From Pseudobacter ginsenosidimutans (GTDB taxonomy: Bacteria; Bacteroidota; Bacteroidia; Chitinophagales; Chitinophagaceae), in the NCBI RefSeq assembly GCF_007970185.1, contig NZ_CP042431.1, forward strand, positions 2,480,001 through 2,544,000: 64,000 nt of DNA, written 5' to 3'. Positions within the stretch are counted from its first letter, which is position 1. Every line of letters begins with the position of its first letter. Both the position numbers and the translations under genes were made by a program. This document shows, one piece after another, positions 1,527 through 33,733 of this stretch. The notes below the pieces were generated by a model. It was not told where the DNA came from and did no database searches. It saw nothing but the letters and a program-made list of their open reading frames with translations.

Positions 1527-1554
1527 TGGTGGTATGGCCTCCCACAGGTGACAT
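1527..1554 (+). promoter_or_regulatory. ECF-type promoter motif, copy 1
   Basis: TGGTGG at 1527-1532, exactly 15 bp, then GTGACAT at 1548-1554. The same two blocks at the same spacing occur at four other places in this locus. It ends 29 bp before the ATG of the 1584 lipoprotein gene and probably drives that gene together with susC and susD. The -35/-10 reading is inferred; the repetition is directly visible. Confidence 0.7.
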
Positions 1555-1583
1555 ACAATAGTAAAGACTAAAACCATTCTGCT

Positions 1584-3002
1584 ATGCGATTGCTCTTACC
1601 TGTCCTCCTATGCGCCCTGATTTTTTCCGGTTGCAAAAAAGATGATCTGGAAAAACAGGAATTCGAAAAAGCCATCCTTTTCTTCAATGTGGAAGGTCAA
1701 CTCGGAAAAACAGAGATCACGCGTACGGTGGATACCAGCCGGGTAAGACTGGCTATGCCTACGGGAACGGACATGTCTGCTATCGCTCCCAGTATCATGG
1801 TTTCCGATGGAGCCAGCATCCTGCCTGCTTCGGGAGAGATCATCAACTTCGCTGCCAACAATAACAAATACACTTACAAGGTCACTGCAAAGAATGGTAC
1901 AGTCCGTAACTGGCTGGTGGAGATCAGTGTGATCGATAATATCTACGACAGTCTGGTGCTCATCCCCAATACCGGCGAATGGGGCGAGCAGTTGATGGTA
2001 TTCCATGATACAGTCTACAACAAATACCTCACCCGCTATTCCGGATGGAATGGTGGCGATGGTTGCGTGTCTATTCCGCTTCCCAACGGAAATGTGGTAT
2101 GGTCTTTTCAGGACAGTTTCTTTGGAGAAGTAAGACCAGACAGGGCTCGTATAGACAATGTGTTTGTGCGCAACGCAGGATTCATTCAACTGGGCCGTTC
2201 CACAGCACCCACCAGTTATGTGCAGCTCAATCCCACCGGGCCCAATGGCAAAGCGGCTACCTGGGTCACTGTTCCCGGTGCAACCAATGGAGATGAAAAG
2301 CTGTACTGGGGCGGGCCTGCACAGGTGTTGGGCAATGAAGTACAGATGGTGATGGGACAATTGCACCTGATCAATGGTGTACTGGAACATCAATCCACCG
2401 ATGTTGCGGTATTCACTCTTCCAGACATGCAACAAAAAGAGATCATCCAGCAAAAATATATCGGCGCACTGCCTTTCGATGCCAGTCTGTTCAAAGCAAG
2501 TGATGGCTATACTTATATGTACACCACGCAGGCTTTCGGCATTTGCGCTTCGCATGTGTATGTAGCGAGGGCTGCCAACAATGATATCACCGGCCAATGG
2601 GAATTCTATACGAAGAATGGCTGGTCTGCATCGCAGCCGGCAACAGAAGATCTCGTAAGTCTGCTGGAGGACAATGCCACGCAGCCCAATGTATTCGAGA
2701 AAAATGGAAAATATTATCTCGTTTCGCAGACAACCTGCTATGGCCGCGATATCAAGATCTGGGAGAGCGGAAGCCCAACAGGGCCTTTCACCAACGGAAG
2801 AACATTGTACAGGATACCTGCTCAATATTCCCTGCCTGAATTCATCACTTACAATGCAGTGGTGCATCATGCCATCTCCCGGTATGGCGAGCTCGTGATC
2901 TCCTACAATATCAATCCCACTGATTTCTGGAGCAATTTCAACAATCCGGGCAGTGCAGACAGATACCGCCCTTACTTTGTGAGAGTGTTCAATTGGGAGT
3001 AA
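1584..3002 (+). CDS. Surface lipoprotein, Ig-like (DUF5018-like) plus DUF5005-like propeller
   Basis: The 472-residue product starts with a lipoprotein signal (hydrophobic stretch ending IFSGC at Cys17). Residues about 25-120 form a beta-sandwich module like those that precede glycan-binding domains (DVP-type repeats such as PTGTDMSAIAPSI and ending YTYKVTAKNGTVRNW). Residues about 125-472 resemble the DUF5005/DUF4185 five-bladed propellers, structurally related to GH43/GH130 folds (GNVVWSFQDSFFGEV, QPNVFEKNGKYYLVSQ). No catalytic triad can be assigned with confidence. As the first gene behind ECF motif copy 1 and 54 bp upstream of susC, it may be a surface glycan-binding protein or a glycosidase of this operon. 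Confidence 0.7.
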   Translation: MRLLLPVLLCALIFSGCKKDDLEKQEFEKAILFFNVEGQLGKTEITRTVDTSRVRLAMPTGTDMSAIAPSIMVSDGASILPASGEIINFAANNNKYTYKVTAKNGTVRNWLVEISVIDNIYDSLVLIPNTGEWGEQLMVFHDTVYNKYLTRYSGWNGGDGCVSIPLPNGNVVWSFQDSFFGEVRPDRARIDNVFVRNAGFIQLGRSTAPTSYVQLNPTGPNGKAATWVTVPGATNGDEKLYWGGPAQVLGNEVQMVMGQLHLINGVLEHQSTDVAVFTLPDMQQKEIIQQKYIGALPFDASLFKASDGYTYMYTTQAFGICASHVYVARAANNDITGQWEFYTKNGWSASQPATEDLVSLLEDNATQPNVFEKNGKYYLVSQTTCYGRDIKIWESGSPTGPFTNGRTLYRIPAQYSLPEFITYNAVVHHAISRYGELVISYNINPTDFWSNFNNPGSADRYRPYFVRVFNWE

Positions 3003-3056
3003 TCGAAATGATGTAAATTGGGCGGTTGGTACCCGTGTTGTAAACCATTTGCAAGA

Positions 3057-6000
3057 ATGAAGGATAAACTAACTGCCCCATATGATCCTCCCTGCACTTT
3101 CAGACAGATGCTGGCTTGCATAAGCATGCTGATCACAAGCTGTCTGATTGCCTGTATGGCAATTGCCCAGGAAGCGCCACGGCTGCAGCAGGTGCTCATC
3201 GATCTCACTGCACGCAACAGACCACTTGACAAAATATTGCAGGATATTGAAGCCCAAACGCAATTCCGTTTCGTTTATAACAGCGCTGAGCTCAGAGCTG
3301 CAGGTTCAGTTACCATCAACCGGAAACGGATCAATGTTGAGCAGGCATTGCATGAACTCCTGCCTGCAGGGTTGGAGTTCCGGCAACGGGGCTACAATAT
3401 TTTGGTGCTGATAAAAGAAGAAACTGCCGGATCTGCGCCCAATAAGGATTTCCTCGTTAGCGGAAGAGTGGTGGATGCGGCCGGGCAGCCATTGAGCGGT
3501 GTAACAGTGTCTGCCGGGAATTCCCGCCGCGCCACAGTTACCAATGAACAGGGCAGTTTTGTGATCAATGCTTCAAAGAATGAAAGTCTCGAAATCACTT
3601 CTGTGGGATTTGAAGATATCACTGTTGCCGTCACTGGTCAGCCGTTACAGATAGTGCTCAGTCCAAACCGTCGCCAGGCATTGAATGATGTGATTGTGAT
3701 CGGTTATGGAAATCTGCAAAGGAAAAGATTATCTACTGCCATCGCCACTGTTTCCGGAACTCAACTCAATGAGCGCGCCGCTTCAATGAACATTGTTGAA
3801 GCGATGGCCGGCAAAGTGCCCGGGGCCAGCATCATGCTCAATTCAGGAAAGCCTGGCAGCAATCCCTCTATCAAGATCAGAGGCACTGGTTCCATCAATG
3901 CATCCAACACTCCCTTGTTTGTGCTGGATGGAATTGTTGGACTCGACCCGATGATCATCGATCCCAGTATCATACAGTCTGTAGACATCCTGAAAGATGC
4001 CGCCTCTGCCGCCATCTATGGATCGAGAGGCAGCAATGGTGTAATATTGATGACATCCAAACAGGGAGTGAAGAACAAATCGAATATCATCTTCTCCAAC
4101 CGCGTAAGCATCGCAACGCTCGCCCGTGAGATCGATCTGCTGGATGCAAAGGGCGCATTGGAAATGATAGAAAGGCAATATGCCTATATGCCAGGCAGGC
4201 TGGCGCCGCATAAAGATCCCTCCAATGATTTTGCACGTAAGGATGAATTGTTCTATCCGGATGGCACACCGCGTTACAATATCAACTGGCAGAAAGAAGC
4301 CACCAGGACTGCCCTCTCCACCAACAGTTCCCTGACCTTTACCGGAGGTAAAGACAATATGACCAGCCTGGTGAATCTGTCTTACAAAAAACAGGAAGGC
4401 ATCATGCTGAACAGTTCTTTGCAGCAGATCAATCTTTTTGCCAATCTCGGCTGGGAAGTGAAGCCCTGGCTGCATCTCAAGACCATCCTGAACGGAGGTG
4501 GATTGCAATCCCGCAATGTAGACCTCAATTCACTTGGGTTCAATGCCATCCGCGAAATGTATGAGTACCTTCCATTCATTCCTGTAAAATACAGCGATGG
4601 CTCCTGGAGCCGCAAAGGCGATTATCCCGGTGCGGAAAATTCCGAGAATCCGATCCGCTTGCTGAATGAAGTAAGATCCGTAACCGGTCAGACCTATGTA
4701 ATGGGTAATATCACAGGAACCATTCACCTGAATAAGAAAATCGATCTCGTTACCATCTTCAGCGGTCAGCTGGGTGGCGCTTACAACAATTATTACTCAG
4801 GAAAAGATGTGTTTGGTTTTTCCGACCTGGAAAATGGAATTGCACAACGGATAAATGGCAATGCAGGCGCCTGGACCAATGAAGATTATATCATGTACAA
4901 CGATCGTATCGGCAAACATAAGTTCAATGCGCTGGCCGGTGCGAGCTGGTATTTCAATGTAGGTACTTCCACATTTGCAGGTGCTGAAAATTTCTTCGAC
5001 GATTTTTTCAGTTACAATAATCTCGGAGCAGGTACTGTGCGTCAAACGCCGGGATCGGACAGACAGCAAAACCAGATGAATTCTTTTTTCACCCGCGTGC
5101 AATACGATTATGATAACCGTTACCTGGCTGGAGCCTCCTTCAGAGTGGATGGCTCTTCCCGCTTTGGAGCGAATAACAAATACGGTTATTTCCCTGCCCT
5201 GTGGACAAGCTGGTTGGTTTCCGCAGAACCTTTCTTTCAACGCTGGTTGCCAGCAGTGAGTTACCTGAAACTGCGCGCCAGCCTGGGCGTAACGGGAAAT
5301 GCCGAGATCGGCAATTACGCAACTTTGTCGAGGCTCAATCCAACGCAGGTAATATTTGGCGGACAGCAGCAACCCGCTGTGGTATTGTCGAATCCCGGCA
5401 ACAGGAATTTGAAATGGGAGCGGGGGGAACAGTTGAATATCGGTATCGATGCCAGTCTGCTGAACGATCGCATCGCCTTCACTGCAGAAGTATACCGCCG
5501 CCGCACAACCGATTTGTTGTACATCAAGCAATTGCCAGCCACCACCGGTTATGGTGGCATCTACGATAATATCGGTTCCATCCGCAACCAGGGACTGGAG
5601 CTCAGTATCCGCACCAGGAATATTTCCGGCCGGAACCTCACCTGGACCAGTGGCATCAACTTTTTCCTGAACCGTTCCAATGTACTTCACCTCAACGGAG
5701 ATATCATTTATAACTGGGCCGGGCGTATCATGGAAGGGCAGCCTACCGATCAATATTTCGGATACTACCGGACCGGTACCTGGAGCACTGCTGAAGCTGC
5801 GGATGCCGCCGTGTTCGGCAGAAAACCCGGAGATGTGAAATGGCTAGACCGGAATAAGAACCAGGCAAAAGATGCAGGTGACCGGGTGCCGCTCGGCAGC
5901 AAGATGCCACGTTATCAGATCGATTTCACCAATACTTTCAGCAGCGGCCCATTTAGTGTGTTCATAGATGTTAGCAGCATGCTGGGGCATAAGCTGGCCA

Positions 6001-6404
6001 ACTTTTCACGGTTCATCATGGAAAGCCATACTACCAGCGTGAACAGCTACTCCGCTATCCTTAATGCCTGGACGTCTGATGCACAGCATACAAGCCTGGC
6101 ACAGCTCAGGCTGCAATCCGATGGTGGTGAAAATGAAATGGACAATTATTATATCGAAGATGGCTCCTTTGTGCGTGTGCGTAATATCGCTGTTCACTAT
6201 GAACTGCAACCCGCCATCCTGAAAAAATTGAAAATGGAAAAATGTACCATCGGCATCAATGCGGAAAACTATTTCCTGTTCACGAAATACAAGGGATTTG
6301 ATCCTGAAGCCACTTCCTTCGATGGCGATCTTAACCAGGGAGTGGACGTGTATCAATATCCAAAACCTAAAACATTATCCCTGGTGCTACAGGTTACTTT
6401 TTAA
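3057..6404 (+). CDS. SusC-family TonB-dependent transporter with STN signalling domain
   Basis: The 1115-residue outer-membrane protein has four parts in order. A signal peptide ends in MAIAQ near residue 38. A secretin/TonB short N-terminal (STN) domain spans about 42-117. A carboxypeptidase-regulatory-like beta-sandwich spans about 130-205. The plug and 22-stranded barrel start near the signature DVIVIGYG. The STN domain is what FecA-type receptors use to touch a FecR anti-sigma factor across the periplasm, so this is the sensor candidate of the locus. The ATG at 3057 is chosen because it begins the signal peptide; the upstream in-frame ATG at 3018 adds a poor leader. SusD starts 10 bp downstream and fecR follows, the expected signalling trio. 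Confidence 0.93.
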   Translation: MKDKLTAPYDPPCTFRQMLACISMLITSCLIACMAIAQEAPRLQQVLIDLTARNRPLDKILQDIEAQTQFRFVYNSAELRAAGSVTINRKRINVEQALHELLPAGLEFRQRGYNILVLIKEETAGSAPNKDFLVSGRVVDAAGQPLSGVTVSAGNSRRATVTNEQGSFVINASKNESLEITSVGFEDITVAVTGQPLQIVLSPNRRQALNDVIVIGYGNLQRKRLSTAIATVSGTQLNERAASMNIVEAMAGKVPGASIMLNSGKPGSNPSIKIRGTGSINASNTPLFVLDGIVGLDPMIIDPSIIQSVDILKDAASAAIYGSRGSNGVILMTSKQGVKNKSNIIFSNRVSIATLAREIDLLDAKGALEMIERQYAYMPGRLAPHKDPSNDFARKDELFYPDGTPRYNINWQKEATRTALSTNSSLTFTGGKDNMTSLVNLSYKKQEGIMLNSSLQQINLFANLGWEVKPWLHLKTILNGGGLQSRNVDLNSLGFNAIREMYEYLPFIPVKYSDGSWSRKGDYPGAENSENPIRLLNEVRSVTGQTYVMGNITGTIHLNKKIDLVTIFSGQLGGAYNNYYSGKDVFGFSDLENGIAQRINGNAGAWTNEDYIMYNDRIGKHKFNALAGASWYFNVGTSTFAGAENFFDDFFSYNNLGAGTVRQTPGSDRQQNQMNSFFTRVQYDYDNRYLAGASFRVDGSSRFGANNKYGYFPALWTSWLVSAEPFFQRWLPAVSYLKLRASLGVTGNAEIGNYATLSRLNPTQVIFGGQQQPAVVLSNPGNRNLKWERGEQLNIGIDASLLNDRIAFTAEVYRRRTTDLLYIKQLPATTGYGGIYDNIGSIRNQGLELSIRTRNISGRNLTWTSGINFFLNRSNVLHLNGDIIYNWAGRIMEGQPTDQYFGYYRTGTWSTAEAADAAVFGRKPGDVKWLDRNKNQAKDAGDRVPLGSKMPRYQIDFTNTFSSGPFSVFIDVSSMLGHKLANFSRFIMESHTTSVNSYSAILNAWTSDAQHTSLAQLRLQSDGGENEMDNYYIEDGSFVRVRNIAVHYELQPAILKKLKMEKCTIGINAENYFLFTKYKGFDPEATSFDGDLNQGVDVYQYPKPKTLSLVLQVTF

Positions 6405-6414
6405 CGGGAAGGAT

Positions 6415-7905
6415 ATGAAGCAACTGGTAAAAATATTGATTTGTTTGGCAGTGCTGCAGAACGCTTCCTGCAGCAAGTTCCTGGAAGAAGATCCTGCCGG
6501 CTTCATCAGTCCTGAAAAATATTACACTACGGAACTCCAGGTGCAGGCCGCCGTAAATGGAACCTATACCGGACTTGATGATATTTTCTCCACAGATATC
6601 GGTGTTGCCGTAAGTCCGTCTTTCTCGCTGGAATACCTCACCGGTTACAGTTATCGTTTGCGTCCGGCAGCTAATGCCGATAACCAGTTCCTCCGCCTGG
6701 ATCCCATCGATCCGGCCAATGGCTATTTGGAAAATTGGTGGAAGGCCGTGTATTATCCAATGGAAAACTGCAATAGTGTAATCGATAATTTAGGACGAAC
6801 TACCTTTCTGCCGGAATCAGATAAAAAGAAATACCTGGGCGAAGTATATTTTCTCCGCGCCTGGTATTATTTCATGGGTGTTCGACTTTTCGGTGACATC
6901 CCTTTGAAAACAACACCCACTACGGATTTTAACAATGTACATATTCCCAAAGCGAAACAGGCGGAACTGTATAACCAGATCGTGGCCGATCTGAAAATGG
7001 CCGAACAATCGGGTCTGCCCTGGACTGATGCTTCAGGTCATGTATCGCTGGGGGCCGTGAAATCCCTGCTGGCAAAAGTGTACATCACTATGGCCGGTTA
7101 CCCGCTGAGGAAAGGAAATACTTATTATCAACTGGCATATGATAAAGCCCGTGAAGTGATCAGCAGCCAGCAATTTTCCCTGTTTGCCAGTTATGGCGAC
7201 CTAAGGAAGAATTCCCTGAAGAATACCGGCGAACATATTTTCATGTTGCAGCGCGACCTGGCAAATGCCGGTAATATGCTGCATTTTGCACTCATGCCTT
7301 TCCCCGATCTGCCGATCACCATTCAGCCCGCTTATGGCGGGGCGCTGGCGCCCAGGCTGGAATTCTATCAATCTTTCAACGCAGCTGATCATCGGAAAGG
7401 AGAACAGGTTTTCTTTTTTACAGAATATCCCGGATTCAACAATCCCACCCATATTATCCCGTTGCCCGTGCCGCTGATCTTCAAATACTGGGATGAGCAG
7501 GCAGAGCAGATCGGGAAAACAGGACAGAATTTTCCTTACCTGCGATATGCCGATGTATTGTTGCTTTGCGCCGAAGCACGCGCCAGCCTGGATGGAGGAA
7601 GTACTACCAATACCTTCGCTATCGATGCATGGCACCAGGTGCACCGGCGCGCTTTTCCCGGCAGTGTAAAACCTGCACAGCTCCACGTGAATGATGTGCT
7701 GAAAGAAAGATTCTGGGAACTATGCTTTGAATGGCATACCTGGTACGATATGCTGCGGACGCGCAAGGCATTGAACACTACTACGGGACAAATAGTGGAT
7801 CTTCTCGGTTATCAGGCGCCGAATCATGTACATCCGTTTTCAGAAAAAGACCTTCTGCTGCCTGTTCCGCTGAGCGAGGTCCAGAAAAACCCTTTGCTCA
7901 AGTAG
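6415..7905 (+). CDS. SusD/RagB-family glycan-binding lipoprotein
   Basis: The 496-residue protein begins MKQLVKILICL and has a lipobox (LQNASC, lipidated Cys near residue 19). TPR-rich SusD features follow: FLEEDPAGF after the anchor, the AKVYITMAGYPL helix repeat, and the closing region RFWELCFEWHTWYDMLRTRKA with the VPLSEVQKNPLLK terminus. The frame is open much further upstream, inside susC, but only the ATG at 6415 gives the lipoprotein signal. SusD caps the SusC barrel and delivers oligosaccharides. It lies 10 bp after susC and 46 bp before fecR. Confidence 0.93.
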   Translation: MKQLVKILICLAVLQNASCSKFLEEDPAGFISPEKYYTTELQVQAAVNGTYTGLDDIFSTDIGVAVSPSFSLEYLTGYSYRLRPAANADNQFLRLDPIDPANGYLENWWKAVYYPMENCNSVIDNLGRTTFLPESDKKKYLGEVYFLRAWYYFMGVRLFGDIPLKTTPTTDFNNVHIPKAKQAELYNQIVADLKMAEQSGLPWTDASGHVSLGAVKSLLAKVYITMAGYPLRKGNTYYQLAYDKAREVISSQQFSLFASYGDLRKNSLKNTGEHIFMLQRDLANAGNMLHFALMPFPDLPITIQPAYGGALAPRLEFYQSFNAADHRKGEQVFFFTEYPGFNNPTHIIPLPVPLIFKYWDEQAEQIGKTGQNFPYLRYADVLLLCAEARASLDGGSTTNTFAIDAWHQVHRRAFPGSVKPAQLHVNDVLKERFWELCFEWHTWYDMLRTRKALNTTTGQIVDLLGYQAPNHVHPFSEKDLLLPVPLSEVQKNPLLK

Positions 7906-7924
7906 ACTGCTTCAGATACTTTTG
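7894..7924 (+). promoter_or_regulatory. Housekeeping (B. fragilis-type) promoter for fecR
   Basis: TTG at 7894-7896 and TACTTTTG at 7917-7924, 20 bp apart, match the Bacteroidota consensus TTTG-N19/20-TAnnTTTG. It overlaps the end of susD and lies 27 bp before the fecR ATG. The anti-sigma gene could therefore be made constitutively, independent of the ECF promoters. Confidence 0.55.
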
Positions 7925-7951
7925 CAGTGGAACCGATAATCATCATCCCGC

Positions 7952-8956
7952 ATGGAACAAGAAAGATTACAGAAGTTGATAGATAAGGTACTTAGCGGCC
8001 AGGCAACCCCGTTGGAACAACAGGAGCTTGATCAATGGTATGCAGCACAGGATGAGGCGCAGGGATTGACAGAAGGAATGGATACACAGGAAAAATCTGC
8101 GGTAGGTTCACAATTGTTCCGCTCGATCGAGCAGCGGATCCAATCCGGCGAAGCGCAGGAAGCAATGGCGGCTCCCGTGTATGCAATGCCATCCCGTAAT
8201 AACCGCAAATGGTGGATAGCCGCCGCTGTGGTGGCGCTGTTGGGATTTGGAGGCATTTACTTTTTCAATACCAGGCCCGCCGGATCCGCACTGGCGGCTG
8301 TTTGGCAGGAAGTAAGAACAACCACTGATGTACAGGTAGTCCGACTGCCCGATGGTTCGAAAATTTGGCTGAATGCCGGCTCCGGGATACGTTACGATAC
8401 AGCTTTCTCCAATGGTAAACGCGAGATCTGGTTGCAGGGCGAAGCTTATTTCGATGTGGCGCAGCGGCCGGATAAACCATTTGAAGTACATACCGGTCAT
8501 GTTACCACGCAGGTGCTGGGCACTGCTTTCAATATCGATGCTTACAACTCAACTGATAAGATCATTGTTACTGTGAACAGCGGAAAAGTAGCTTTGCGTG
8601 ATGCCGGCAGGCTCATAAGCCAGGTATTGCCAAACCAACGCATCGTTTGCAAGGCCGATGGCAGCTTCAGCAAAGACAGTGCAACGGTCAACGATATGAT
8701 GGCCTGGACCAGCGGTCAGCTGGTTTTCCGCAACATGAAATTCAGTGAAGTAGCCAAACGCCTGGAAAGAAAATTCCGCGCTGAACTGATCTTCCGCGAT
8801 GCCAGTATCGGCAACTGTTCCATTACTGCCAGTTTCACTCCCTCCACTACACTGGAAGAGATCCTGGACATGCTCGCCCTGATCAATGGCAGTGAGATCA
8901 CCTCCGGAAAAGCCTACAATCAATTTTATATCTCCGGCAAGAAGCAATGTAAATAG
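7952..8956 (+). CDS. FecR-family anti-sigma factor, transmembrane
   Basis: The 334-residue protein has the standard FecR layout. A cytoplasmic N-terminal helical domain covers about 1-85, including LSGQATPLEQQELDQWY. One membrane helix lies at about 90-108. The periplasmic FecR domain contains VRLPDGSKIWLNAGSGIRY and GEAYFDVAQRPDKPFEV. The C-terminal DUF4974-type domain (KFSEVAKRLERKF) is the one that contacts the receptor STN domain. It directly follows the STN-bearing susC and its susD. No sigma gene is adjacent; the nearest candidate partner is the ECF factor at 34014, which is inference. It may both hold back the sigma factor and pass on the transport signal. Confidence 0.92.
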   Translation: MEQERLQKLIDKVLSGQATPLEQQELDQWYAAQDEAQGLTEGMDTQEKSAVGSQLFRSIEQRIQSGEAQEAMAAPVYAMPSRNNRKWWIAAAVVALLGFGGIYFFNTRPAGSALAAVWQEVRTTTDVQVVRLPDGSKIWLNAGSGIRYDTAFSNGKREIWLQGEAYFDVAQRPDKPFEVHTGHVTTQVLGTAFNIDAYNSTDKIIVTVNSGKVALRDAGRLISQVLPNQRIVCKADGSFSKDSATVNDMMAWTSGQLVFRNMKFSEVAKRLERKFRAELIFRDASIGNCSITASFTPSTTLEEILDMLALINGSEITSGKAYNQFYISGKKQCK

Positions 8957-8990
8957 CAGCAACCCCTGTTGATTGCCTTCAACTGCCGTA

Positions 8991-9018
8991 TAGCGGTGGA
9001 GCCTTTCTGATGTGACAT
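8991..9018 (+). promoter_or_regulatory. ECF-type promoter motif, copy 2
   Basis: TAGCGG at 8991-8996, 15 bp, GTGACAT at 9012-9018. It lies upstream of the GH92-GH2 pair. It ends only 8 bp before the ATG at 9027, so a transcript starting about 7 bp downstream of the -10 block would be nearly leaderless. The motif also shows that GTG 9012 is not a start codon. Confidence 0.7.
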
Positions 9019-9026
9019 ATATTCGT

Positions 9027-11318: not shown

Positions 11319-11326
11319 ACAGAATC

Positions 11327-14258: not shown

Positions 14259-14300
14259 GCCGGGTGCCGGCAATCGCTCGCCTCCCGGCTTCTTTTTTTT
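14259..14300 (+). terminator. Rho-independent terminator after the GH92-GH2 unit
   Basis: GCCGGG (14259-14264) pairs with CCCGGC (14284-14289) and is followed by TTCTTTTTTTT. It separates the GH2 gene from ECF motif copy 3, supporting independent transcription units. Confidence 0.7.
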
Positions 14301-14305: not shown

Positions 14306-14333
14306 TGGCGGTATCGCTTCGCACAGGTGACAT
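14306..14333 (+). promoter_or_regulatory. ECF-type promoter motif, copy 3
   Basis: TGGCGG at 14306-14311, 15 bp, GTGACAT at 14327-14333, directly after the terminator and 24 bp before the ATG at 14358. It is the only promoter candidate seen for the 17-kb run of closely packed genes that ends with the second GH92. Confidence 0.75.
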
Positions 14334-16052: not shown

Positions 16053-16072
16053 AACATCAAATCAATTTTCCC

Positions 16073-16507: not shown

Positions 16508-16522
16508 CATAAACCCTGCAAC

Positions 16523-17497: not shown

Positions 17498-17540
17498 TCC
17501 CAGAGGTCTTAACCAAACTACCATCGCTAAATCAAATAAT

Positions 17541-20666: not shown

Positions 20667-20677
20667 GCACACAGACT

Positions 20678-22381: not shown

Positions 22382-22399
22382 TCTAACCATTGCTAATTC

Positions 22400-25300: not shown

Positions 25301-25441
25301 TTCTACCTGAGCGGTTATAATCTTTTTACCTGGACCAACTACAAGAAATACCAACAGGATCCTGAAGTGGCCAGTGGTTCCATGGGAGATTCCTATCTTA
25401 ACCAGCGTGTAGTGAACCTTGGTATCCAGATCGGATTGTAG
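22400..25441 (+). CDS. SusC-family TonB-dependent transporter without an adjacent downstream SusD
   Basis: The 1013-residue protein starts with a signal peptide (LGILLIPMLTLAQ), then a carboxypeptidase-regulatory-like domain (TVTGVVKDDNGPVTSASI), the SusC signature DVIVVGFGKKQRI, the plug (IIVDDIEYTYVQLAQINVNEIESI) and a full barrel. ATG 22400 and ATG 22406 are both plausible starts. The usual susC-susD order is broken: the next gene is an SGNH hydrolase, and the free SusD is the first gene of the operon at 14358. No STN domain is present. Confidence 0.93.
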   Translation: MFMNKISIGLILGILLIPMLTLAQRTVTGVVKDDNGPVTSASITEKGVAANGVSANSNGRFSITLRGKSNTIIVSNVGYVQQEVNVRGLSDVEVVLQASRNAMEDVIVVGFGKKQRITNTGSVSTIKAEEIRLVPTANVQNALSGRLPGFFSQQRSGQPGRDAADYFIRGVSSLNAEGNKPLIIVDDIEYTYVQLAQINVNEIESISILKDASTTAIYGIKGANGVLVVTTRRGQSGKPRINVRTEAGGQVPTVKPEFLNAYQTTLLVNEARNNDGLQPLFTKNDIELFKSGEDPYGHPDVNWYDAIFRDFSLQANTNVDISGGNNTVKYFTSFGALTQNGSIRDFSKAGGEHLNTNYFFRRFNFRTNLDIQATKTLSLRLDVTGRFGMINTPNTSNIMEEIYNFDKITPYAAPFINPNGSYAYAYNTKESLPTLNARLALSGYTRTKQNDLNILLGGTQKLDAVLRGLSLTGRVAYASTWDVWRKLLRDLPPSYHYDAATGQYNIDPRGRYSMPTYAVSAGSDISDKRVNLQAILNYDRIFGDHQVRGMVLFNQNSYTFKERVAENFRGYSLSAGYNFQRKYLLDVNLGYNGSDRFAGSKRYGLFPAVSAGWNIAAEPFFEKLFPGIKLFKVRAGYGMVGSDAVDGNRYIYEQVYIPGGNYSFGETPGISNGIREGMLGNSNVTWEKKKSQNYALDVNMWNDKLSFTLEYFRDLRIDQLVYRGSVPNVLGIGTAPVNIGRVQNKGWELIATYQDKIGEVQFNITPTFSFAKNKVLYRDEAAQRYPWLAATGHPINQPFGYKFIGFYQNDADIEKSAKPITGAVKPGDLKYADLNGDMLIDQNDMTAIGKPNLHTTNVGLTLGARYKGFSMNILFQGAYDYSFSIIGSGIEPFKSQFQPIHLQRWTPDNPNDPLFPRLTTDAGSVNSGSNYMSDFWLIDAHYIRLKTVELSYQLPDKWLPLRLNNARFYLSGYNLFTWTNYKKYQQDPEVASGSMGDSYLNQRVVNLGIQIGL

Positions 25442-25460
25442 AAAAATAATTTTTAGGCAC

Positions 25461-26852
25461 ATGAACAACATCCTTAAAAAAGCATTCGTACTTCTGGCAT
25501 CGCTTGGCGGCATTGCCGCACAGGCCCAGGTGGCGCCTTTCAGGAAAGGCGACCGCGTGGTATTTGCAGGGAACAGTATTACAGATGGTGGCCATTATCA
25601 TTCCTATATCTGGCTCTATTACATGACGAGATTCCCCGATCAGCGCATCGATATTTTCAATGCCGGGATCGGTGGAGATGTAGCGGCGCAGATCCTGGGC
25701 CGCTTCGATGGCGATATACTGCCTAAGAAGCCCACTGCTATTGCACTCACTTTCGGGATGAACGATACCAGGTACATGGAATACCTGCAACCAGGCGCCG
25801 ATGAAATGGCCGCCAAAGCTGTTCAGACATCTTTCGAAAGCTATCAGCAGATAGAAAAGAAACTGAAGGCCTTGCCCTCCGTTCGTAAAATACTCATGAG
25901 CTCTTCTCCCTATGATGAAACCACTAAGGGGAAAGGCAATTATTATCCCGGGAAAAGCAAAGCGATGCTGAAAGTGGCGGAGTTCCAGGAAGCAGCCGCC
26001 AAAAAGAACAACTGGGCATTTGTAGATTTCAACCGCCCAATGACTGCTATCAACCAGCAGTTCCAGCAAAACGATTCCACTTTTACCATTTGTGGCGGAG
26101 ACCGTGTTCATCCGGGTCAGGATGGGCATATGGTGATGGCATATATTTTCCTGAAAGCCCAGGGCTTCGCCAATAAGGAAGTGGCAGATGTTGTGGTGGA
26201 TGCAAATCAGAAAAAGATCCAACGCGCCACCAATAGTGCTGTTACCAATCTTGCAGTTACCAATGGCAGGATTCAATTCGATTACCTGGCAAAAGCATTG
26301 CCTTATCCGCTGGACACAGTGCCGCGCGGCTGGGGCGCTACCACCAGGCAGTCTGAAGTAGTGAACCTCGTGGATTTCACCAAAGAGTTCAACCATGAAA
26401 TGTTTACAGTAAAAGGATTGCAGGCCGATAAAAAATATTTATTGCTGATCGATAAGGATACGGTTGGAAGTTTCACCGGCGCTCAATGGGCTGAAGGTAT
26501 CAACCTGGCCGGGATCAGTCGTACTCCCCAATACCAGCAGGCCACTGCCGTGATGTTGTTGAATGAAGAACGCTGGGAGCTGGAGCGCAAATTCCGTCAG
26601 CATGCCTGGGTTGAATTCAATATCCTCAAAGAGCATGGGCGCTTGAATAAAGACGATGTGAATTCGATGGCATTGCTGCAGGAGCTGGGGAAAGAGAATG
26701 GATGGATCAGGGGCAATCTCGATAACTACTCGAAGAGTCGCATGCCTGCTATCCGCGAAGCCTGGCAAAAACAGATAGAAGTATTGGTGAGCACCATCTA
26801 TACCATCAATCAACCGAAGAACAGGCATTGTGAGATCAGGATGTTGAACTGA
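25461..26852 (+). CDS. Secreted SGNH/GDSL hydrolase (probable carbohydrate esterase)
   Basis: The 463-residue protein has a signal peptide (ATG 25461, ending GIAAQAQ). SGNH blocks follow: GNSITDGG (nucleophilic Ser), NAGIGGD (oxyanion Gly), TFGMNDTRY (Asn) and DRVHPGQDGH (catalytic Asp and His). The C-terminal half is longer than the minimal SGNH domain and holds an added alpha/beta region. In a glycan-utilisation operon such enzymes usually remove acetyl groups that block exo-glycosidases. Acetyl-mannan or sialic-acid-type decorations are possible, but the substrate is not determined. The frame is open upstream into susC, but only ATG 25461 gives the signal peptide. Confidence 0.88.
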   Translation: MNNILKKAFVLLASLGGIAAQAQVAPFRKGDRVVFAGNSITDGGHYHSYIWLYYMTRFPDQRIDIFNAGIGGDVAAQILGRFDGDILPKKPTAIALTFGMNDTRYMEYLQPGADEMAAKAVQTSFESYQQIEKKLKALPSVRKILMSSSPYDETTKGKGNYYPGKSKAMLKVAEFQEAAAKKNNWAFVDFNRPMTAINQQFQQNDSTFTICGGDRVHPGQDGHMVMAYIFLKAQGFANKEVADVVVDANQKKIQRATNSAVTNLAVTNGRIQFDYLAKALPYPLDTVPRGWGATTRQSEVVNLVDFTKEFNHEMFTVKGLQADKKYLLLIDKDTVGSFTGAQWAEGINLAGISRTPQYQQATAVMLLNEERWELERKFRQHAWVEFNILKEHGRLNKDDVNSMALLQELGKENGWIRGNLDNYSKSRMPAIREAWQKQIEVLVSTIYTINQPKNRHCEIRMLN

Positions 26853-26876
26853 TCCTTTGATCTTTAAGTAACATTA

Positions 26877-29402
26877 ATGGGTATACGTAAAATTATTTCG
26901 GGGCTACTCCTGGCATGTTTGATCACCGGGAGTAGCCTTTCGGTGCAGGCGCAGCAATCATGGTTCATCGATGGCTATCATGGTGGCATCTGGGGTCATT
27001 ACCCCAAAGGGTATACGAATTTCATTATCGGCCAGCTTCAGCAGCATCCTGCCTGGAAGATCAACCTGGAAATTGAACCCGTCACCTGGGATGCAGTGAG
27101 AGCTGATGATACAGCTGCCTACCGGAAATTGAGATCGATGATCGCAGCCGGTGATCGCATTGAATACGTGAACCCGGGATTTGGGCAAAGCTATTTGTTC
27201 ATGGGTTCCGGCGAAAGCATGATCAGGCAATTCAGTTATGGCATAAAAAAACTAAGGGAACATTTTCCCGGCATCGGCTTTACTACCTACTCAACTGAAG
27301 AGCCCTGTTTTACCAGCGCCCTGCCGCAGGTGCTGAAGTCGTTCGGTTTTAAATATGCTTCACTGAAGAATCCGAACACCTGTTGGGGTGGCTATACCCG
27401 TGCACATGGCGGAGAGCTCGTAAACTGGATCGGGCCGGATGGCAGCAGCATCCTTACCGTTCCGAGATATGCCACAGAGGAACTGGTGAAAGGATCAACC
27501 TGGCAAACCACTGCCTGGAACAGTGGCAGGGATTATGTTCAATCAGCCCTGCAATATGGTGTGAAGCATCCTGTAGGAATGTGTTTGCAGGATGCAGGCT
27601 GGAAGAATGGACCCTGGATCGGCAATAAAAATGGAATTCAGTACACCACCTGGAAAGAATATTTTGAAAAGATTGCCGACCATTCGCTGGCAACCAACTG
27701 GAAGGTATCGCAGGAAGATATCCTGGTGAGCCTTGTTTGGGGATCGCAGGTATTGCAACGCATCGCGCAACAGGTGCGGAGCGCGGAAGACAAGCTGGTG
27801 GCCACTGAGAAGCTGGCAAGTATGGCGGCGGTCAGGTCAGGTTTCGCATGGCCGCAGTCAGCTTTCGATCAGGCATGGGAAAATCTCTTGTTGGCGCAGC
27901 ACCACGATTGCTGGATCGTTCCTTACAATGGCGATCACGGGGATACATGGGCAGACAAAGTACGTAACTGGACAATGGTAACTGAAAATATCTGCGACAG
28001 CATCAGCACAGCAGCCAGGAAAGCGCTCACCAGCGCTGCTTCCAACAGTATCGCTGTTTTCAATACAACTGCCATCCACCGGCAGGAACTGATCAGTGTT
28101 TCTGCTGAGGAAGATTCGAAGGCCCTTGCTGTTCAGTCAGGCAAACAATTACTGCCCGTGCAATGGGCCACCAACGAAAAAAATGGAAAGAAGGAATTGC
28201 TGTTCAAAGCCTCGGTGCCTGCGGCTGGTGCACAGACCTGGCAATTCTCAAACAGAAAACCTGATCATCTAAAAGGAGCATCGGCTGAACAACGTGATGG
28301 GGTAATAGTACTGGAGACTGATCTCTATCGCCTGACCATCGATCCCAAAGCCGGAGGCGCTATCAGCAGCCTGATCAGCAAACAATGGCAGCAGAAAGAA
28401 TGGATCGCTGAGGGTTCACCATCTTTCAATACCCTGCAAGGGAATTTTTATGATGATGGAGGCCAGCTCAGTACTGCATCGCGGCCAGCAACAGTGACCA
28501 TCATCGAGAATGGCCCGCTGCGCGTGAAGGTAAAGATCAGTGGAACTATTGCAGGACAGGCTTTTCATCAAACCATCACTCTCATGCAGGGCGAACCACG
28601 CATCGATTGCGCCTTGAAGATCCTCTGGCAAAAAAATATTGCAATAGGCAGCAATTACAAACAGCAGGATTATAAAGCAGAAGAATACCGGAAAGCATTT
28701 TATGACGATAGTCAGAAACTATTGTTGTCATTCCCTGTGAACCTTTCCTCACAAACCATTCACAAGAATGCGCCCTTTGATGTTACAGCCAGCCGGCTCG
28801 ATCATACATACTTCAACAGGTGGGACAGTATCAGGAATAATGTAATACTGCACTGGATTGATATCGCAGACGAAAAAGAGAAATATGGAATAGCGCTCTT
28901 CACGGATCATACCGGCGCTTATGTACATGGCAACAATCATCCACCCGGACTTGTGGTGCAATATTCCGGCAGGGGATTATGGGGTAGGGATTATACCGTA
29001 AACGGTCCAACTAGTATCAACTATTCATTGTTGCCGCATAAAGGTTTATGGGAGCAGGCACAGCTTGAAGCGGAAAGAGTGAAGCTGGCCGAACCATTGC
29101 TGGCAAGTGCCGGCTCTGCTGAGTTGAAACATTTTCTGCATGTAAGCAAACCCGGATGGGAGCTCAGTTCCATGACCATACACGGAAAGGACCTGTTGAT
29201 GCGCTTCTACAATGCTGCAGCTTCAGATTCCACGGCAACAGTATATTTATCTGTACCTGTAAAACATGTAACATTGGAAAACCTGGATGGATCGATCCTC
29301 AAAACAATTCAAACAAAAAATGCAAAAAATGGAACCATTTTTACAGTGTCCGCTCCACGTTTTGGCATTCGCACCATAAGGTTGCATAACCTGGTTAAAT
29401 AG
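26877..29402 (+). CDS. GH38-like alpha-mannosidase homologue with altered N-terminal metal motif
   Basis: The 841-residue protein has a signal peptide (LSVQAQ) and a GH38-type plan. It has an N-terminal alpha/beta barrel, a helical part containing AQHHD (His342-His343-Asp344, as in alpha-mannosidases) and C-terminal beta-sandwich domains (VLETDLYRLTIDPKAGGAISSL). The canonical family start H-x-D, two of the zinc ligands, is not seen. The equivalent region reads IDGYHGGIWGHYP, and the region where the nucleophile Asp is expected reads VNPGFGQSY. It may belong to a divergent subfamily with a different metal site or linkage. It lies between the SGNH gene and the second GH92. Confidence 0.72.
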   Translation: MGIRKIISGLLLACLITGSSLSVQAQQSWFIDGYHGGIWGHYPKGYTNFIIGQLQQHPAWKINLEIEPVTWDAVRADDTAAYRKLRSMIAAGDRIEYVNPGFGQSYLFMGSGESMIRQFSYGIKKLREHFPGIGFTTYSTEEPCFTSALPQVLKSFGFKYASLKNPNTCWGGYTRAHGGELVNWIGPDGSSILTVPRYATEELVKGSTWQTTAWNSGRDYVQSALQYGVKHPVGMCLQDAGWKNGPWIGNKNGIQYTTWKEYFEKIADHSLATNWKVSQEDILVSLVWGSQVLQRIAQQVRSAEDKLVATEKLASMAAVRSGFAWPQSAFDQAWENLLLAQHHDCWIVPYNGDHGDTWADKVRNWTMVTENICDSISTAARKALTSAASNSIAVFNTTAIHRQELISVSAEEDSKALAVQSGKQLLPVQWATNEKNGKKELLFKASVPAAGAQTWQFSNRKPDHLKGASAEQRDGVIVLETDLYRLTIDPKAGGAISSLISKQWQQKEWIAEGSPSFNTLQGNFYDDGGQLSTASRPATVTIIENGPLRVKVKISGTIAGQAFHQTITLMQGEPRIDCALKILWQKNIAIGSNYKQQDYKAEEYRKAFYDDSQKLLLSFPVNLSSQTIHKNAPFDVTASRLDHTYFNRWDSIRNNVILHWIDIADEKEKYGIALFTDHTGAYVHGNNHPPGLVVQYSGRGLWGRDYTVNGPTSINYSLLPHKGLWEQAQLEAERVKLAEPLLASAGSAELKHFLHVSKPGWELSSMTIHGKDLLMRFYNAAASDSTATVYLSVPVKHVTLENLDGSILKTIQTKNAKNGTIFTVSAPRFGIRTIRLHNLVK

Positions 29403-29409
29403 ATCAGAT

Positions 29410-31719
29410 ATGAAAAAGCATGTATTCCTCACTGCAAATATCCTGGCCATGTTCATGGCATCCGCTCAGCAACAACCCGCCGATTATGTGAATCCATTTA
29501 TCGGCGCCAGCACCAGTACCGGTAAGGCTGGCACTTACCATGGACTGGGAAAAACATTTCCCGGCGCTGCCACACCATTCGGAATGGTGCAGCTCAGTCC
29601 GAATACCATCACCGGTGGCGATAACGGATCTGGTTACAGCTATGAACATACTACCATTGAAGGCTTCGCTTTCACACAAATGAGTGGTGTGGGTTGGTAT
29701 GGCGACCTCGGTAATTTTTTGGTGATGCCGGCAACCGGACCGCTGGAAACAGCAGCAGGTAAAGAAGATACGCCTCATAAAGGCGGCTATCGGTCTGTCT
29801 ACGATAAAGCAAGTGAAAAAGCATCCGCCGGTTATTACAGTGTACAACTCACAAAACACAATATCAAAGCTGAACTGACAGCCGCTCCGCACAGCGGCAT
29901 CCTGCGTTTTACTTTTCCTGCCCACCAGCAATCCCGCATCCAGATCGATCTGGCCCGCAGAGTAGGAGGCACGTCCACTCTGCAATATGTAAAAGTAGTG
30001 GATGATCATACCATTGAAGGCTGGATGCAATGTACGCCCGATGGTGGAGGCTGGGGTAACGGTGACGGCAAAGCGAATTACACAATTCATTTCTATGCGC
30101 AGTTCAGTAAGCCATTGAAGAAAGTGGGTATATGGAGCGCCAATATTCCTGACGGGTTGCCTCGCAAACGCGAGAACATTGAAAGTGATGATTACCAGCA
30201 AAGGATTGCGAACGCTGATGTCTTCACCGGATTGAAAGAAAAAAAAGGAAAACATCTCGGCTTCTACACCGAGTTTGCCACCAGTGAAGGAGAGCAGGTG
30301 CTGATGAAGGCCGGCATTTCGCTGGTGAGTATTGCAGGTGCAAAAAAGAACCTGCAGGCAGAGATAAAAGACTGGAACTTCGATCAGGTACGAAAAGCAG
30401 CCAATGAATTATGGAATGATGCGCTTGGTAAACTAATTGTGGAAGGAGGGGATGAAGAAAAAAAGACAGTCTTCTATACTGCTCTTTATCATACCATGAT
30501 CGATCCCCGCGCCATGGCCGATGTAGATGGGCAATATCCGGGCGGCGATCACCGGGCACATACTACCAAACAATTCACCAAGCGCACCGTGTTCAGCGGC
30601 TGGGATGTATTCAGGAGCCAGATGCCGTTGCAAACCATCATCAATCCCGTTGTGGTGAATGATATGGTGAACTCTTTGGTGGAGCTGGCGGATCAGACCA
30701 ATAACAAATATTTCGAGCGTTGGGAATTCTTCAACGCTTACAGTGGTTGCATGCTGGGTAATCCTGCCATATCAATGATCACAGATGCTTATGCAAAGGG
30801 CATCCGGAATTTCAATGTGCCCAAAGCACTCACCTACGCCATCAACTCCTCCGAGAAATTCGGTAATGGAGAAAAAGGATATACGCCCGGCGGTTTGTCT
30901 GTTTCCCACACTTTGGAATACGCCTATACTGAATGGGCAACCGCAAAACTGGCCGGATTCCTGGGTAACAGGGAAGCTGAAAAAAAATACAGGCTGCGTA
31001 GTCAGTCTTACCGGAATATTTTCGACAGCAGCAAACAATGGTTCCGTCCAAGGAAGGAAGATGGCAGCTGGGAGCCCTGGCCGGAAGAAGGCAGGCTGAA
31101 AGAATGGTATGGCTGTATGGAAGCCAATCTTTATCAACAGGGATGGTTCGTTCCTCATGATGTCCCCGGCATGATTGCCTTGATGGGAGGGAAAGACAAA
31201 GTGCTGGCAGACCTTGATAATTTCTTTGAGAATGTGCCGGAGAATATGATGTGGAACAACTGTTACAATCATGCAAATGAACCAGTGCATCATGTACCCT
31301 TTCTCTACAACAGGCTCGGTGCGCCATGGCTCACACAAAAATGGACACGTGCGATCTGTAGCAGGGCCTATAAGAATTCTGTGGAAGGATTGGTGGGTAA
31401 TGAAGATGTGGGACAGATGTCTGCCTGGTACGTGCTGGCCGCCAGTGGCCTGCATCCCGTTTGTCCGGGCGATACCAGGTATGAGATCACCAGTCCTGTT
31501 TTCAATACCATTCGTTTCAAACTCGATCCCCGATATGCCAGTGGTAAAACCTTTACCATCATCGCTAAAAACAATTCACCGGAGAACCTGTACATCCAGC
31601 GTGCCAGCCTTAACGGAAATCCCTATACGAAATCTTATATCGATCATAAGGATCTTACCGCCGGAGGCACGCTTCAGTTGGAAATGGGGCCTGCTCCCAA
31701 TCCCGCATGGGGCAAATAG
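29410..31719 (+). CDS. GH92 exo-alpha-mannosidase (second copy)
   Basis: The 769-residue protein has a signal peptide (MKKHVFLTANILAMFMASAQ). Family 92 motifs follow: DYVNPFIGAST, GKTFPGAATPFGMVQLSP, FTQMSGVGWYGDLG in the beta-sandwich and GNEDVGQMSAWYVLAASGL in the catalytic barrel. It differs widely from the GH92 at 9027, so the two probably cleave different alpha-mannosyl linkages. It is the last enzyme of the long operon, 7 bp after the GH38-like gene. ECF motif copy 4 starts 24 bp after its stop. Confidence 0.95.
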   Translation: MKKHVFLTANILAMFMASAQQQPADYVNPFIGASTSTGKAGTYHGLGKTFPGAATPFGMVQLSPNTITGGDNGSGYSYEHTTIEGFAFTQMSGVGWYGDLGNFLVMPATGPLETAAGKEDTPHKGGYRSVYDKASEKASAGYYSVQLTKHNIKAELTAAPHSGILRFTFPAHQQSRIQIDLARRVGGTSTLQYVKVVDDHTIEGWMQCTPDGGGWGNGDGKANYTIHFYAQFSKPLKKVGIWSANIPDGLPRKRENIESDDYQQRIANADVFTGLKEKKGKHLGFYTEFATSEGEQVLMKAGISLVSIAGAKKNLQAEIKDWNFDQVRKAANELWNDALGKLIVEGGDEEKKTVFYTALYHTMIDPRAMADVDGQYPGGDHRAHTTKQFTKRTVFSGWDVFRSQMPLQTIINPVVVNDMVNSLVELADQTNNKYFERWEFFNAYSGCMLGNPAISMITDAYAKGIRNFNVPKALTYAINSSEKFGNGEKGYTPGGLSVSHTLEYAYTEWATAKLAGFLGNREAEKKYRLRSQSYRNIFDSSKQWFRPRKEDGSWEPWPEEGRLKEWYGCMEANLYQQGWFVPHDVPGMIALMGGKDKVLADLDNFFENVPENMMWNNCYNHANEPVHHVPFLYNRLGAPWLTQKWTRAICSRAYKNSVEGLVGNEDVGQMSAWYVLAASGLHPVCPGDTRYEITSPVFNTIRFKLDPRYASGKTFTIIAKNNSPENLYIQRASLNGNPYTKSYIDHKDLTAGGTLQLEMGPAPNPAWGK

Positions 31720-31743
31720 TTATACGGTATGCGGGTAAGGGAA

Positions 31744-31771
31744 TAGCGGCTTCAACAGGTAGAAGTGACAT
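31744..31771 (+). promoter_or_regulatory. ECF-type promoter motif, copy 4
   Basis: TAGCGG at 31744-31749, 15 bp, GTGACAT at 31765-31771, between the second GH92 and the ROK gene. The first ROK ATG (31779) lies only 7 bp after the motif; the second (31794) lies 22 bp after it. Confidence 0.7.
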
Positions 31772-31778
31772 TAAGGAT

Positions 31779-32672
31779 ATGAACAATTCACTCATGGCCG
31801 GTGTGGACATCGGAGGATCGCATATCACGGCGGCCCTGTTGGATACGGCAACCGGCGCTATCGTTCCTGAAACCTGGCAAAGGAACTCCGTACCTGCTGC
31901 CGGCACTGTTGAAGAGATCATCGATGCCTGGAGCGCTGTGATCAGGGCAAGCTATGCAAGGCAATCAACTCCTGTCCGCATAGGTATTGCAATGCCCGGT
32001 CCTTTCGATTATGAAGAAGGTATTTGTTATATCCGCGGCCAGCAGAAGTACGAAGCGCTCTATGGTCTCAACATCAAAGAATTGCTGGCAGAACGTTTAG
32101 GTTGTTCAAAAGATAAGATCCGGCTAACCAATGATGCTGCTTGTTTTTTGCAGGGCGAAGTTTTTGCCGGCGCAGCAAAGGGCCATGCAGCAGTGATTGG
32201 GCTTACGCTGGGCACAGGACTTGGCTCAGCTACTTTCTTTCAACATCATGTTGAGGATGCTGCCTGGTGGAATGCTCCATTCAAAGAGAGTATTGCAGAA
32301 GATTATTTATCGTCCCGCTGGTTCGTACACCGATATCAGCTACTCACTTCGCATTCCGTTCCGAATGTACAGCAGTTGCTGAACACTGGCGATGAAAAGA
32401 ATATCCGGTATGTTTTTGATGAATTTGGTGTTAACCTGGGTACATTTCTTCAGCAAAGGTTGCGGGAGCAGCCGGCTGAACTGATCATAATCGGTGGCAA
32501 TATTGCCCAGGCATTTTCGCTGTTTGAGAAAACCCTGCATGATACTTTACGGATCTCTGGTATTCAAACGCCCGTAAAGCAGGCGATACTCGGAGAACAG
32601 GCAGCGCTCATTGGCGCGGCTACTGCCGGCCTGGAAGGAAAGTTCAACCCACATGAAAAATATCACTATTAA
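31779..32672 (+). CDS. ROK-family sugar kinase (or ROK regulator-like protein)
   Basis: The protein of about 297 residues has the ROK ATPase fold: phosphate-1 loop AGVDIGGSH, LTNDAACFLQGEV, phosphate-2 loop TLGTGLGS and adenosine region IIIGGNIAQAF. It has no DNA-binding N-terminus, so it is probably a hexokinase acting on released mannose or a related sugar. The CxCGxxGC zinc motif typical of many ROK kinases is missing. ATG 31794 (MAGVDIGG) is also a credible start and would leave a normal leader after motif copy 4. Its end overlaps lacI by 20 bp, which indicates translational coupling. Confidence 0.85.
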   Translation: MNNSLMAGVDIGGSHITAALLDTATGAIVPETWQRNSVPAAGTVEEIIDAWSAVIRASYARQSTPVRIGIAMPGPFDYEEGICYIRGQQKYEALYGLNIKELLAERLGCSKDKIRLTNDAACFLQGEVFAGAAKGHAAVIGLTLGTGLGSATFFQHHVEDAAWWNAPFKESIAEDYLSSRWFVHRYQLLTSHSVPNVQQLLNTGDEKNIRYVFDEFGVNLGTFLQQRLREQPAELIIIGGNIAQAFSLFEKTLHDTLRISGIQTPVKQAILGEQAALIGAATAGLEGKFNPHEKYHY

Positions 32673-33678
32673 AGATATCGCCCTCAAAGCCGGTGTAGCT
32701 CCTTCCACCGTTTCTGCTGTGCTCAACGGGAAGACCCGGGAGAGCCGCATCAGTGAGCAACTGGCCAGCAGGGTGCGCGGCATCGCGGCCGATATGGGCT
32801 ATCAACCCAATCAAACCGCGGTTGCCCTTCGTACAGGTAAGACACGTGTGCTGGGATTGATCGTGGAAGATATTTCGAATGTGTTCTTTGCATCACTCGC
32901 CAAGATCATAGAAGAGGAAGCTGATTCCATCGGATACAAAGTGCTTTATTGCAGTACTGAGAATAATGAAGAAAAAGCCCGCGAACGAATACGCATGCTC
33001 AGCCAGCGACAGGTAGACGGATTTCTCATTACACCAACGCCAGGCATGCGTGCTGAGATTGATAGACTCGCCAGCCAGCATAAACCACTCGTGCTGATGG
33101 ACCGCTACTTTCCCGGTCTGTCTGTTCCGCATGTGGTAGTAGACAATTACGACGGTACGCAAATGGCCATGCAACACCTGCTGGAAAAAAGATATCGCCG
33201 CATCGCTTTCGTTACTATACTGCTGGACCAGGTGCAGATGCACCAACGCAGACAGGCGTATGAGGATAGTCTCCGCGTGGCAGGGATTCCTGTGGAAGAA
33301 AACCTTGTGCTGCAACTTCCCTATCACTGCAAACCCGAAGAATCCGTTCAGCAGATCCGTGAATTCATCAGCGAGAATCAGGGGCTGGACGCAATTTTTT
33401 TTGCCACCAACTATGTAGGCGTGTATGGGCTGGAAGCCATCAAAGACCTGGGACTTTCCATTCCAGGTCAACTGGCTGTTATCTGTTTCGACGATCACGA
33501 TATTTTCCGCCTTTATTCACCCGCCATTACCATTGTGAAACAACCGGTGGCCCTGATTGCACAAACCGCTATGCAGTTACTGATCAGGCAGTTTGAGAAA
33601 GGCGCCGGAACGCCCCGGTCTTCGGGCAGCTTCCAGGTTTTGCAGCCTGCTCAACTGGTGATCAGGGCATCGACATAA
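32653..33678 (+). CDS. LacI-family transcriptional regulator
   Basis: The 341-residue protein opens with the LacI helix-turn-helix (ITIKDIALKAGVAPSTVSAVLNGK) and the hinge helix (YQPNQTAVALRTGKT). A periplasmic-binding-protein-like sensor domain follows (LGLIVEDISNVFFASL, LMDRYFPGLSVPHVVVDN, VICFDDHDIFRLY). ATG 32653 is chosen because the HTH begins there. Co-transcription with the ROK kinase suggests that it senses a sugar or sugar phosphate from this pathway. No clear palindromic LacI operator was found in the locus, so its targets are unknown. Confidence 0.92.
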   Translation: MKNITIKDIALKAGVAPSTVSAVLNGKTRESRISEQLASRVRGIAADMGYQPNQTAVALRTGKTRVLGLIVEDISNVFFASLAKIIEEEADSIGYKVLYCSTENNEEKARERIRMLSQRQVDGFLITPTPGMRAEIDRLASQHKPLVLMDRYFPGLSVPHVVVDNYDGTQMAMQHLLEKRYRRIAFVTILLDQVQMHQRRQAYEDSLRVAGIPVEENLVLQLPYHCKPEESVQQIREFISENQGLDAIFFATNYVGVYGLEAIKDLGLSIPGQLAVICFDDHDIFRLYSPAITIVKQPVALIAQTAMQLLIRQFEKGAGTPRSSGSFQVLQPAQLVIRAST

Positions 33679-33705
33679 AAAAAGAAAAAATATTTTTCAC
33701 AGGGA

Positions 33706-33733
33706 TAGCGGTGGCCGCCGTTCCAGGTGACAT
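33706..33733 (+). promoter_or_regulatory. ECF-type promoter motif, copy 5 (sigma operon)
   Basis: TAGCGG at 33706-33711, 15 bp, GTGACAT at 33727-33733, 18 bp before the ATG of the 75-aa gene that precedes the ECF sigma gene. Its presence here predicts that the sigma factor activates its own operon. Confidence 0.75.

Follow-up and report, generated by a model that had tools for sequence, protein, structure and literature searches.

The window, meaning the whole 64-kb stretch of DNA analyzed here, carries a glycan locus of five plus-strand units. We refer to the present genome as G000. G001 and G002 belong to the same genus and carry orthologues of the sigma factor of the locus (82% and 97%, respectively), and G075 is a Longitalea genome with a sigma of 74%. 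The features of the locus are as follows.

1527..1554, + strand: candidate promoter site 1, exact motif match, before the DUF5005 lipoprotein-SusC-SusD-FecR unit; same place in G002 and G001
1584..3002, + strand: DUF5005 lipoprotein-like gene, first of unit 1 (PF16396, E 1.1e-54)
3048..6404, + strand: SusC with an STN-like N-terminus (TIGR04056; PF07660 E 1.6e-5, 25.1 bits, under the 28.4 cut-off)
6409..7905, + strand: SusD-like gene (NF033072 and NF033071, both below cut-offs)
7952..8956, + strand: FecR-type anti-sigma, last of unit 1 (PF04773 and PF16344, over cut-off)
8991..9018, + strand: candidate promoter site 2, exact match, 8 nt before a GH92 gene
9027..14239, + strand: unit 2, GH92 (9027-11318) and GH2 (11327-14239), by Pfam
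14259..14300, + strand: terminator-like hairpin and T-run, end of unit 2 (fold -18.5 kcal/mol, z -2.58)
14306..14333, + strand: candidate promoter site 3, exact match, 24 nt before SusD
14358..31719, + strand: unit 3, SusD, DUF5004, DUF4961, SusC, SusD-like, SusC, GDSL, GH38 and GH92, by Pfam for most
31744..31771, + strand: candidate promoter site 4, exact match, 7 nt before the ROK gene
31779..32672, + strand: ROK-family kinase gene, unit 4 (PF00480)
32650..33678, + strand: LacI-family regulator, unit 4 (PF00356, PF13377)
33706..33733, + strand: candidate promoter site 5, exact match, 18 nt before the 75-aa ORF that opens the sigma unit
33752..33979, + strand: free-standing 75-aa FecR-N-like protein, unit 5 (profile-profile 96.2%, E 2.3e-9)
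34014..34586, + strand: ECF sigma factor, proposed to read all five sites (TIGR02985, 146.7 bits, cut-off 126.4)

The unit 3 gene at 20678-22381 is labelled SusD-like by resemblance to the unit 3 SusD alone, and the hairpin at 14259..14300 is not among the plus-strand entries of a terminator pattern scanner. A divergent gene at 301-1371 matches NF058598 (beta-1,2-mannosidase) over cut-off. Together, the gene contents suggest that the substrate of the locus is mannosidic, probably mannose-rich, glycans. The first-pass annotation had counted a single ECF sigma gene in the locus, and this is so. A second ECF sigma lies elsewhere in the window (about 62423-62893), with its own FecR and then a SusC downstream (L111).

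Five copies of a two-block motif

In the window, the motif TRGYGG-N15-GTGACAT is matched exactly five times, always on the plus strand and with zero mismatches. The matches are at the coordinates given by the first-pass annotation, which had noticed no further copies in the window and had placed each copy 7-29 bp upstream of the first gene of a unit. Our exact scan returns the same five sites only, and the start codon follows GTGACAT at a measured 29, 8, 24, 7, and 18 nt for sites 1 to 5; at site 5, an out-of-frame ATG also lies 8 nt after GTGACAT. Two conserved blocks at fixed spacing, in sense orientation and before gene starts, are what is expected of ECF promoters, for which the usual spacing is 15-17 nt.

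A whole-genome scan with the two-block pattern, as the first-pass annotation had proposed, finds these five copies and no others (one contig, 7,797,595 bases), rather than many unrelated ones; the reversed-pattern control gives one. The probability that five random sites fall within some 32-kb stretch of the genome is about 1.5e-9, with strand and gene position not yet counted. When one mismatch is allowed, 14 places are found in the genome (the five exact sites and nine others), compared with 40 for the reversed control. Eight of the nine others fall within ORFs of 100 aa or more on either strand; the remaining one (L096) is not closely followed by an ORF start. Allowing three mismatches brings the matches in the window to 44, where 44.8 are expected. 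Thus, loose matches are uninformative, and only the exact form informs.

Conservation and association with the sigma factor

The sites are conserved in relatives. G002 has five exact sites at the same positions relative to the units as in G000. Across the five ungapped site pairs, the blocks are identical at 64/65 positions and the spacers at 51/75, while the flanks are identical at 64/100 (20 nt upstream) and 86/100 (20 nt downstream). G075 carries variants of the form TRGCGG-N15-GTGACTW, or near it, before GH2, GH92a (GCGACTT), SusC1 (143 nt from the gene), SusD2, and ROK, and a TGGGGG form precedes its sigma. A matrix was trained on 15 sites, five each from G000, G002, and G075. G001, which was left out of this training, has one exact-pattern match, 36 nt before its DUF5005 gene, and four further matrix sites before GH92a, SusD2, LacI, and sigma (no ROK match was found in G001).

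The sites are also confined to the locus. Among seven whole genomes, the degenerate pattern TRGCGG-N15-GTGACWW has 19 matches, 18 of which are within the locus (G000, 4/4; G002, 5/5; G075, 4/4; G001, 5/6). The sole off-locus match, in G001, is 7 nt upstream of a glycosidase gene with rhamnosidase-type domains, which is perhaps a distal member. The whole genomes of G003, G004 (88% complete), and G005, which are of the same genus, have zero matches. All three also lack a sigma orthologue: at E 1e-30, G003 and G004 give no sigma match, and G005 gives one of 38%.

In a family-wide scan, the exact pattern was matched in 41 of 294 genomes. Most of the exact-match loci inspected (22/28; L006, L012-L038) lie inside ORFs of at least 100 aa on either strand; two of the remaining six (L006 and L014) precede DUF5005 and SusD homologues. 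One genome picked up through its exact match (G270) has two sites and a sigma of 49%.

We find that motif presence is associated with sigma identity. The matrix was run on 23 of 80 sigma loci. Scores above 17 occur at eight of the nine loci with a sigma at least 47% identical, a set that includes the training loci of G002 (L162) and G075 (L178) and whose single miss is a 5-kb fragment, and at none of the 14 loci with a sigma of 44% or less. Shuffled sequence gives two matrix matches per 2.06 Mb. Thirteen larger or further regions contain 20 non-training matches scoring above 15, a number in which one site is counted twice (G107/L165) and L168 and L230 are near-copies. For 16 of these, an ORF of the same strand begins 6-157 nt downstream, and four have no ORF start within 160 nt. 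No site scoring above 15 was found in G059 (sigma 46%) or G081 (51%), nor in the 60 paralogous sigma loci of the present genome (447,220 bases).

Of the 14 motif-bearing rows on a 43-sigma tree, 12 fall inside one supported set of 17. L168 and L230 have motif matches, yet lie outside this set; L170 and L174 lie inside it without sites. The motif label requires five changes on the tree (shuffle mean 11.9; 0/500 shuffles as low). Recognition-helix residues do not cleanly separate the motif-bearing sigmas. At paralogous loci of the genome, the regions upstream of SusC (55 loci) and of sigma (60 loci) were searched for a two-block motif in common, and nothing rose clearly above shuffles. Thus, the motif does not serve this sigma family as a general promoter.

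A probable private regulon and its proposed control

The first-pass annotation had read the five copies as ECF-type promoters of a single regulon. Our results support this reading, as the motif tracks the sigma gene in the genus, and we infer that the sigma itself recognizes the sites. On the evidence of sequence, the five sites are very probably promoters of the ECF sigma encoded at 34014-34586, with TRGYGG acting as a -35-like element and GTGACAT as a -10-like element across the 15-nt spacer, and the glycan locus would be the private regulon of this sigma.

Other ECF sigmas are plentiful in the genome, with at least 150 TIGR02985 matches, so the promoters could be real but read by another of these sigmas, or by several. 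We consider this very unlikely, given that motif presence follows the orthologue of the 34014 sigma within the genus, that site 5 precedes this sigma's own unit, and that the motif occurs in 0 of the 60 paralogous loci checked. The motif might also be an operator of the unit 4 LacI-family regulator, the second DNA-binding regulator encoded in the locus, whose gene adjoins sigma in G000, G002, G075, G001, G107, and G062. However, no inverted repeat is present in the motif, which is non-palindromic and found in a single orientation; at sites 2 and 4, the ATG follows after only 8 and 7 nt, respectively; and in G011, which carries sites, no LacI orthologue was found (best match 36%). An operator role is thus extremely improbable.

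We give almost no credence to the motif being a 5' leader RNA element with a role in translation or decay control. Such an element would suit a motif that is always sense-oriented and adjoins start codons, but as a group the four sites folded do so no better than shuffles (z 0.58, 1.52, -1.58, and -0.49). In addition, five bases separate the end of the terminator-like hairpin from site 3, so that transcription must begin beyond the hairpin, and the upstream gaps lack a housekeeping box: TAnnTTTG, as given in excerpts of PMC7366714 and PMC9723704, is absent from all five.

With the sites read as promoters of the 34014 sigma, the locus may work as follows. Substrate at the putatively STN-bearing SusC would relieve the FecR anti-sigma of unit 1 and free the sigma, which would direct RNA polymerase to the five sites and raise expression of the transporters, glycosidases, and ROK and LacI genes. 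The sigma would also raise its own gene through site 5, a positive feedback, and induce its own FecR through site 1, a built-in brake. In G011, G059, G062, and G068, the 40 kb surrounding sigma yielded no FecR. Thus, the FecR step is not general, and in these genomes the sigma input differs or lies elsewhere.

The 75-aa protein probably binds sigma in the cytoplasm, as either a soluble brake or a pro-sigma factor. Pfam gave no informative match for it, and neither did a PDB sequence search. Alone, it does not significantly match a profile of the FecR N-terminus (E=6), but a family of six such small proteins aligned to 14 FecR N-termini in a profile-profile comparison at 96.2% (E 2.3e-9; controls 0.1% and 0.4%). 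Against a profile of paralogue FecR N-termini, the small ORFs of G107, G081, and G099 score E 2e-7, 3e-5, and 4e-5, respectively; that of G081 is about 4 kb from its sigma. ORFs resembling 33752-33979 lie directly upstream of sigma in L162, L163, L165, L166, and L167; none was seen upstream of sigma in L164, L178, L168, or L230, nor in G001 by tblastn. According to excerpts of PMC9249621, FecI is stimulated by the N-terminus of FecR (residues 9-59), whereas the N-terminus of FpvR inhibits its sigmas. Since these N-termini act oppositely, the 75-aa protein could be either an activator or an inhibitor.

The spacing of the sites also bears on the transcripts. Of the 18 sites measured across five genomes, nine have a gap of 7-8 nt to the ATG, namely those before GH92a (G000, G002, and G001), ROK (G000, G002, G075, and L163), GH2 (G075), and the rhamnosidase-like gene (G001). 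If transcription starts 5-10 nt past GTGACAT, this spacing predicts mRNAs that are leaderless or nearly so. Such mRNAs are rare in the figures quoted from PMC9723704 (5.5% in Flavobacterium psychrophilum) and PMC7366714 (about 3.7% of 5' UTRs under 10 nt in Bacteroides thetaiotaomicron).

Significance and comparison with known systems

Glycan loci of Bacteroidota are commonly regulated by ECF sigmas, whose promoters are mostly undefined. ECF promoter prediction is described as challenging without start data (PMC3878776, in part), and the text seen of PMC7366714 gives no motif as known for any B. thetaiotaomicron ECF. Control of glycan loci by sigma and anti-sigma factors is already known; the TRGYGG-N15-GTGACAT promoter was not found in print in the portion of the open-licence PMC literature covered. 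Here, the sequence defines one sigma together with its candidate promoter and gene set, all of them open to direct testing. The route through orthologues and footprints might be extended to the many paralogous sigmas, and could yield orthogonal sigma/promoter pairs. A broader picture can be offered tentatively, and we hold it to be possible rather than probable. It combines a locus-confined regulon of several promoters, a sigma doubly controlled by a self-induced FecR from a distant operon and a free-standing FecR-type pro-sigma factor or brake, several mRNAs made leaderless by the spacing between promoter and start codon, and a comparably private promoter that each of the many ECF sigmas in a genome of this kind may own.

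Candidate ECF promoters have been described in Bacteroidota, and the comparisons that follow draw on parts of the cited papers. Those of SigW-1 and the non-canonical -30/-10 promoters of B. thetaiotaomicron (PMC12596196 and PMC7366714) include one set in a polysaccharide locus. However, the reported motif is TGTT near -10, non-significant for SigW-1 and unlike TRGYGG/GTGACAT, and SigW-1 is distant from its locus. The SM6 motif of F. psychrophilum is likewise attributed to an ECF sigma, but it is a CGT box associated with secretion genes and no glycan locus (PMC9723704). Among the Bacteroides glycan loci under sigma/anti-sigma pairs, the high-mannose locus with BT3993/BT3992 is similar in being a SusCD locus with mannosidases and its own sigma and anti-sigma (PMC11180146); no promoter sequence for it was seen in the text available from that source.

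A close functional parallel is FecI-FecR-FecA of E. coli and Pseudomonas (PMC9249621, in part), which shares with this locus a TonB-linked receptor, a FecR, and an ECF sigma; the STN-like domain of the receptor is putative here, with its PF07660 match under cut-off. The sigma here is FecI-like (TIGR02985), and its anti-sigma is of FecR type (PF04773 and PF16344). The order sigma-FecR-SusC, present in 55 of the 60 paralogous loci of the genome, does not occur in this locus. In contrast to FecI-FecR-FecA, the sigma (34014-34586) is not next to fecR (7952-8956) but about 25 kb away, is itself behind the motif, would control five units, and is preceded by a free-standing FecR-N-like protein. With its sigma set apart from fecR, the locus would thus work like a FecI/FecR system with another layout.

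Further candidate sites

In the congeneric genome G001, a site matching TRGCGG-N15-GTGACWW, a degenerate form of the proposed ECF promoter motif, lies 7 nt upstream of the ATG of a rhamnosidase-type glycosidase gene (G001:C1 near 5568569, locus L248). The gene is far from the glycan locus and is a possible additional regulon member. A looser match in the window is the following:

1471-1498, minus strand, three-mismatch site whose second block reads GTTACAT, directed towards the divergent beta-1,2-mannosidase gene

Three-mismatch matches such as this one occur at chance level.

Sigma genes and their surroundings

33990-34016, stretch like ATACGATTTGCATG, at the start codon of the 34014 sigma gene
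62237-62968, second ECF sigma gene, followed by FecR and SusC (L111)

The ATACGATTTGCATG-like stretch is also found at the sigma start in G001 and G107, and in altered form in G075 and G099; it may be a basal promoter, or else a half-site of the LacI type.

A whole-genome profile search for the TIGR02985 sigma family (E 1e-8) gave at least 150 matches in P. ginsenosidimutans; among those scored, about half exceeded the curated cut-off. Many FecR-SusC gaps of its paralogous sigma loci (L104-L161) contain a short inverted repeat resembling ccggaagtg..cacttccgg, with a ttaaccaaac..ATG stretch downstream (both seen by eye, uncounted). The repeat is a possible attenuator separating sigma-FecR from SusCD. 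FecR was not found in the 40 kb regions examined around the sigma relatives of G011, G059, G062, and G068 (L081-L088).

HipA-type genes and associated repeats

34680-36294, whole set, including recurring TTTATACC..GGTATAAA inverted repeats and a small HTH-like ORF
35039-35371 and 35371-36294, HipA-type genes

The inverted repeats lie upstream of the small HTH-like ORF and the HipA-type genes, and the set as a whole is toxin-antitoxin-like.
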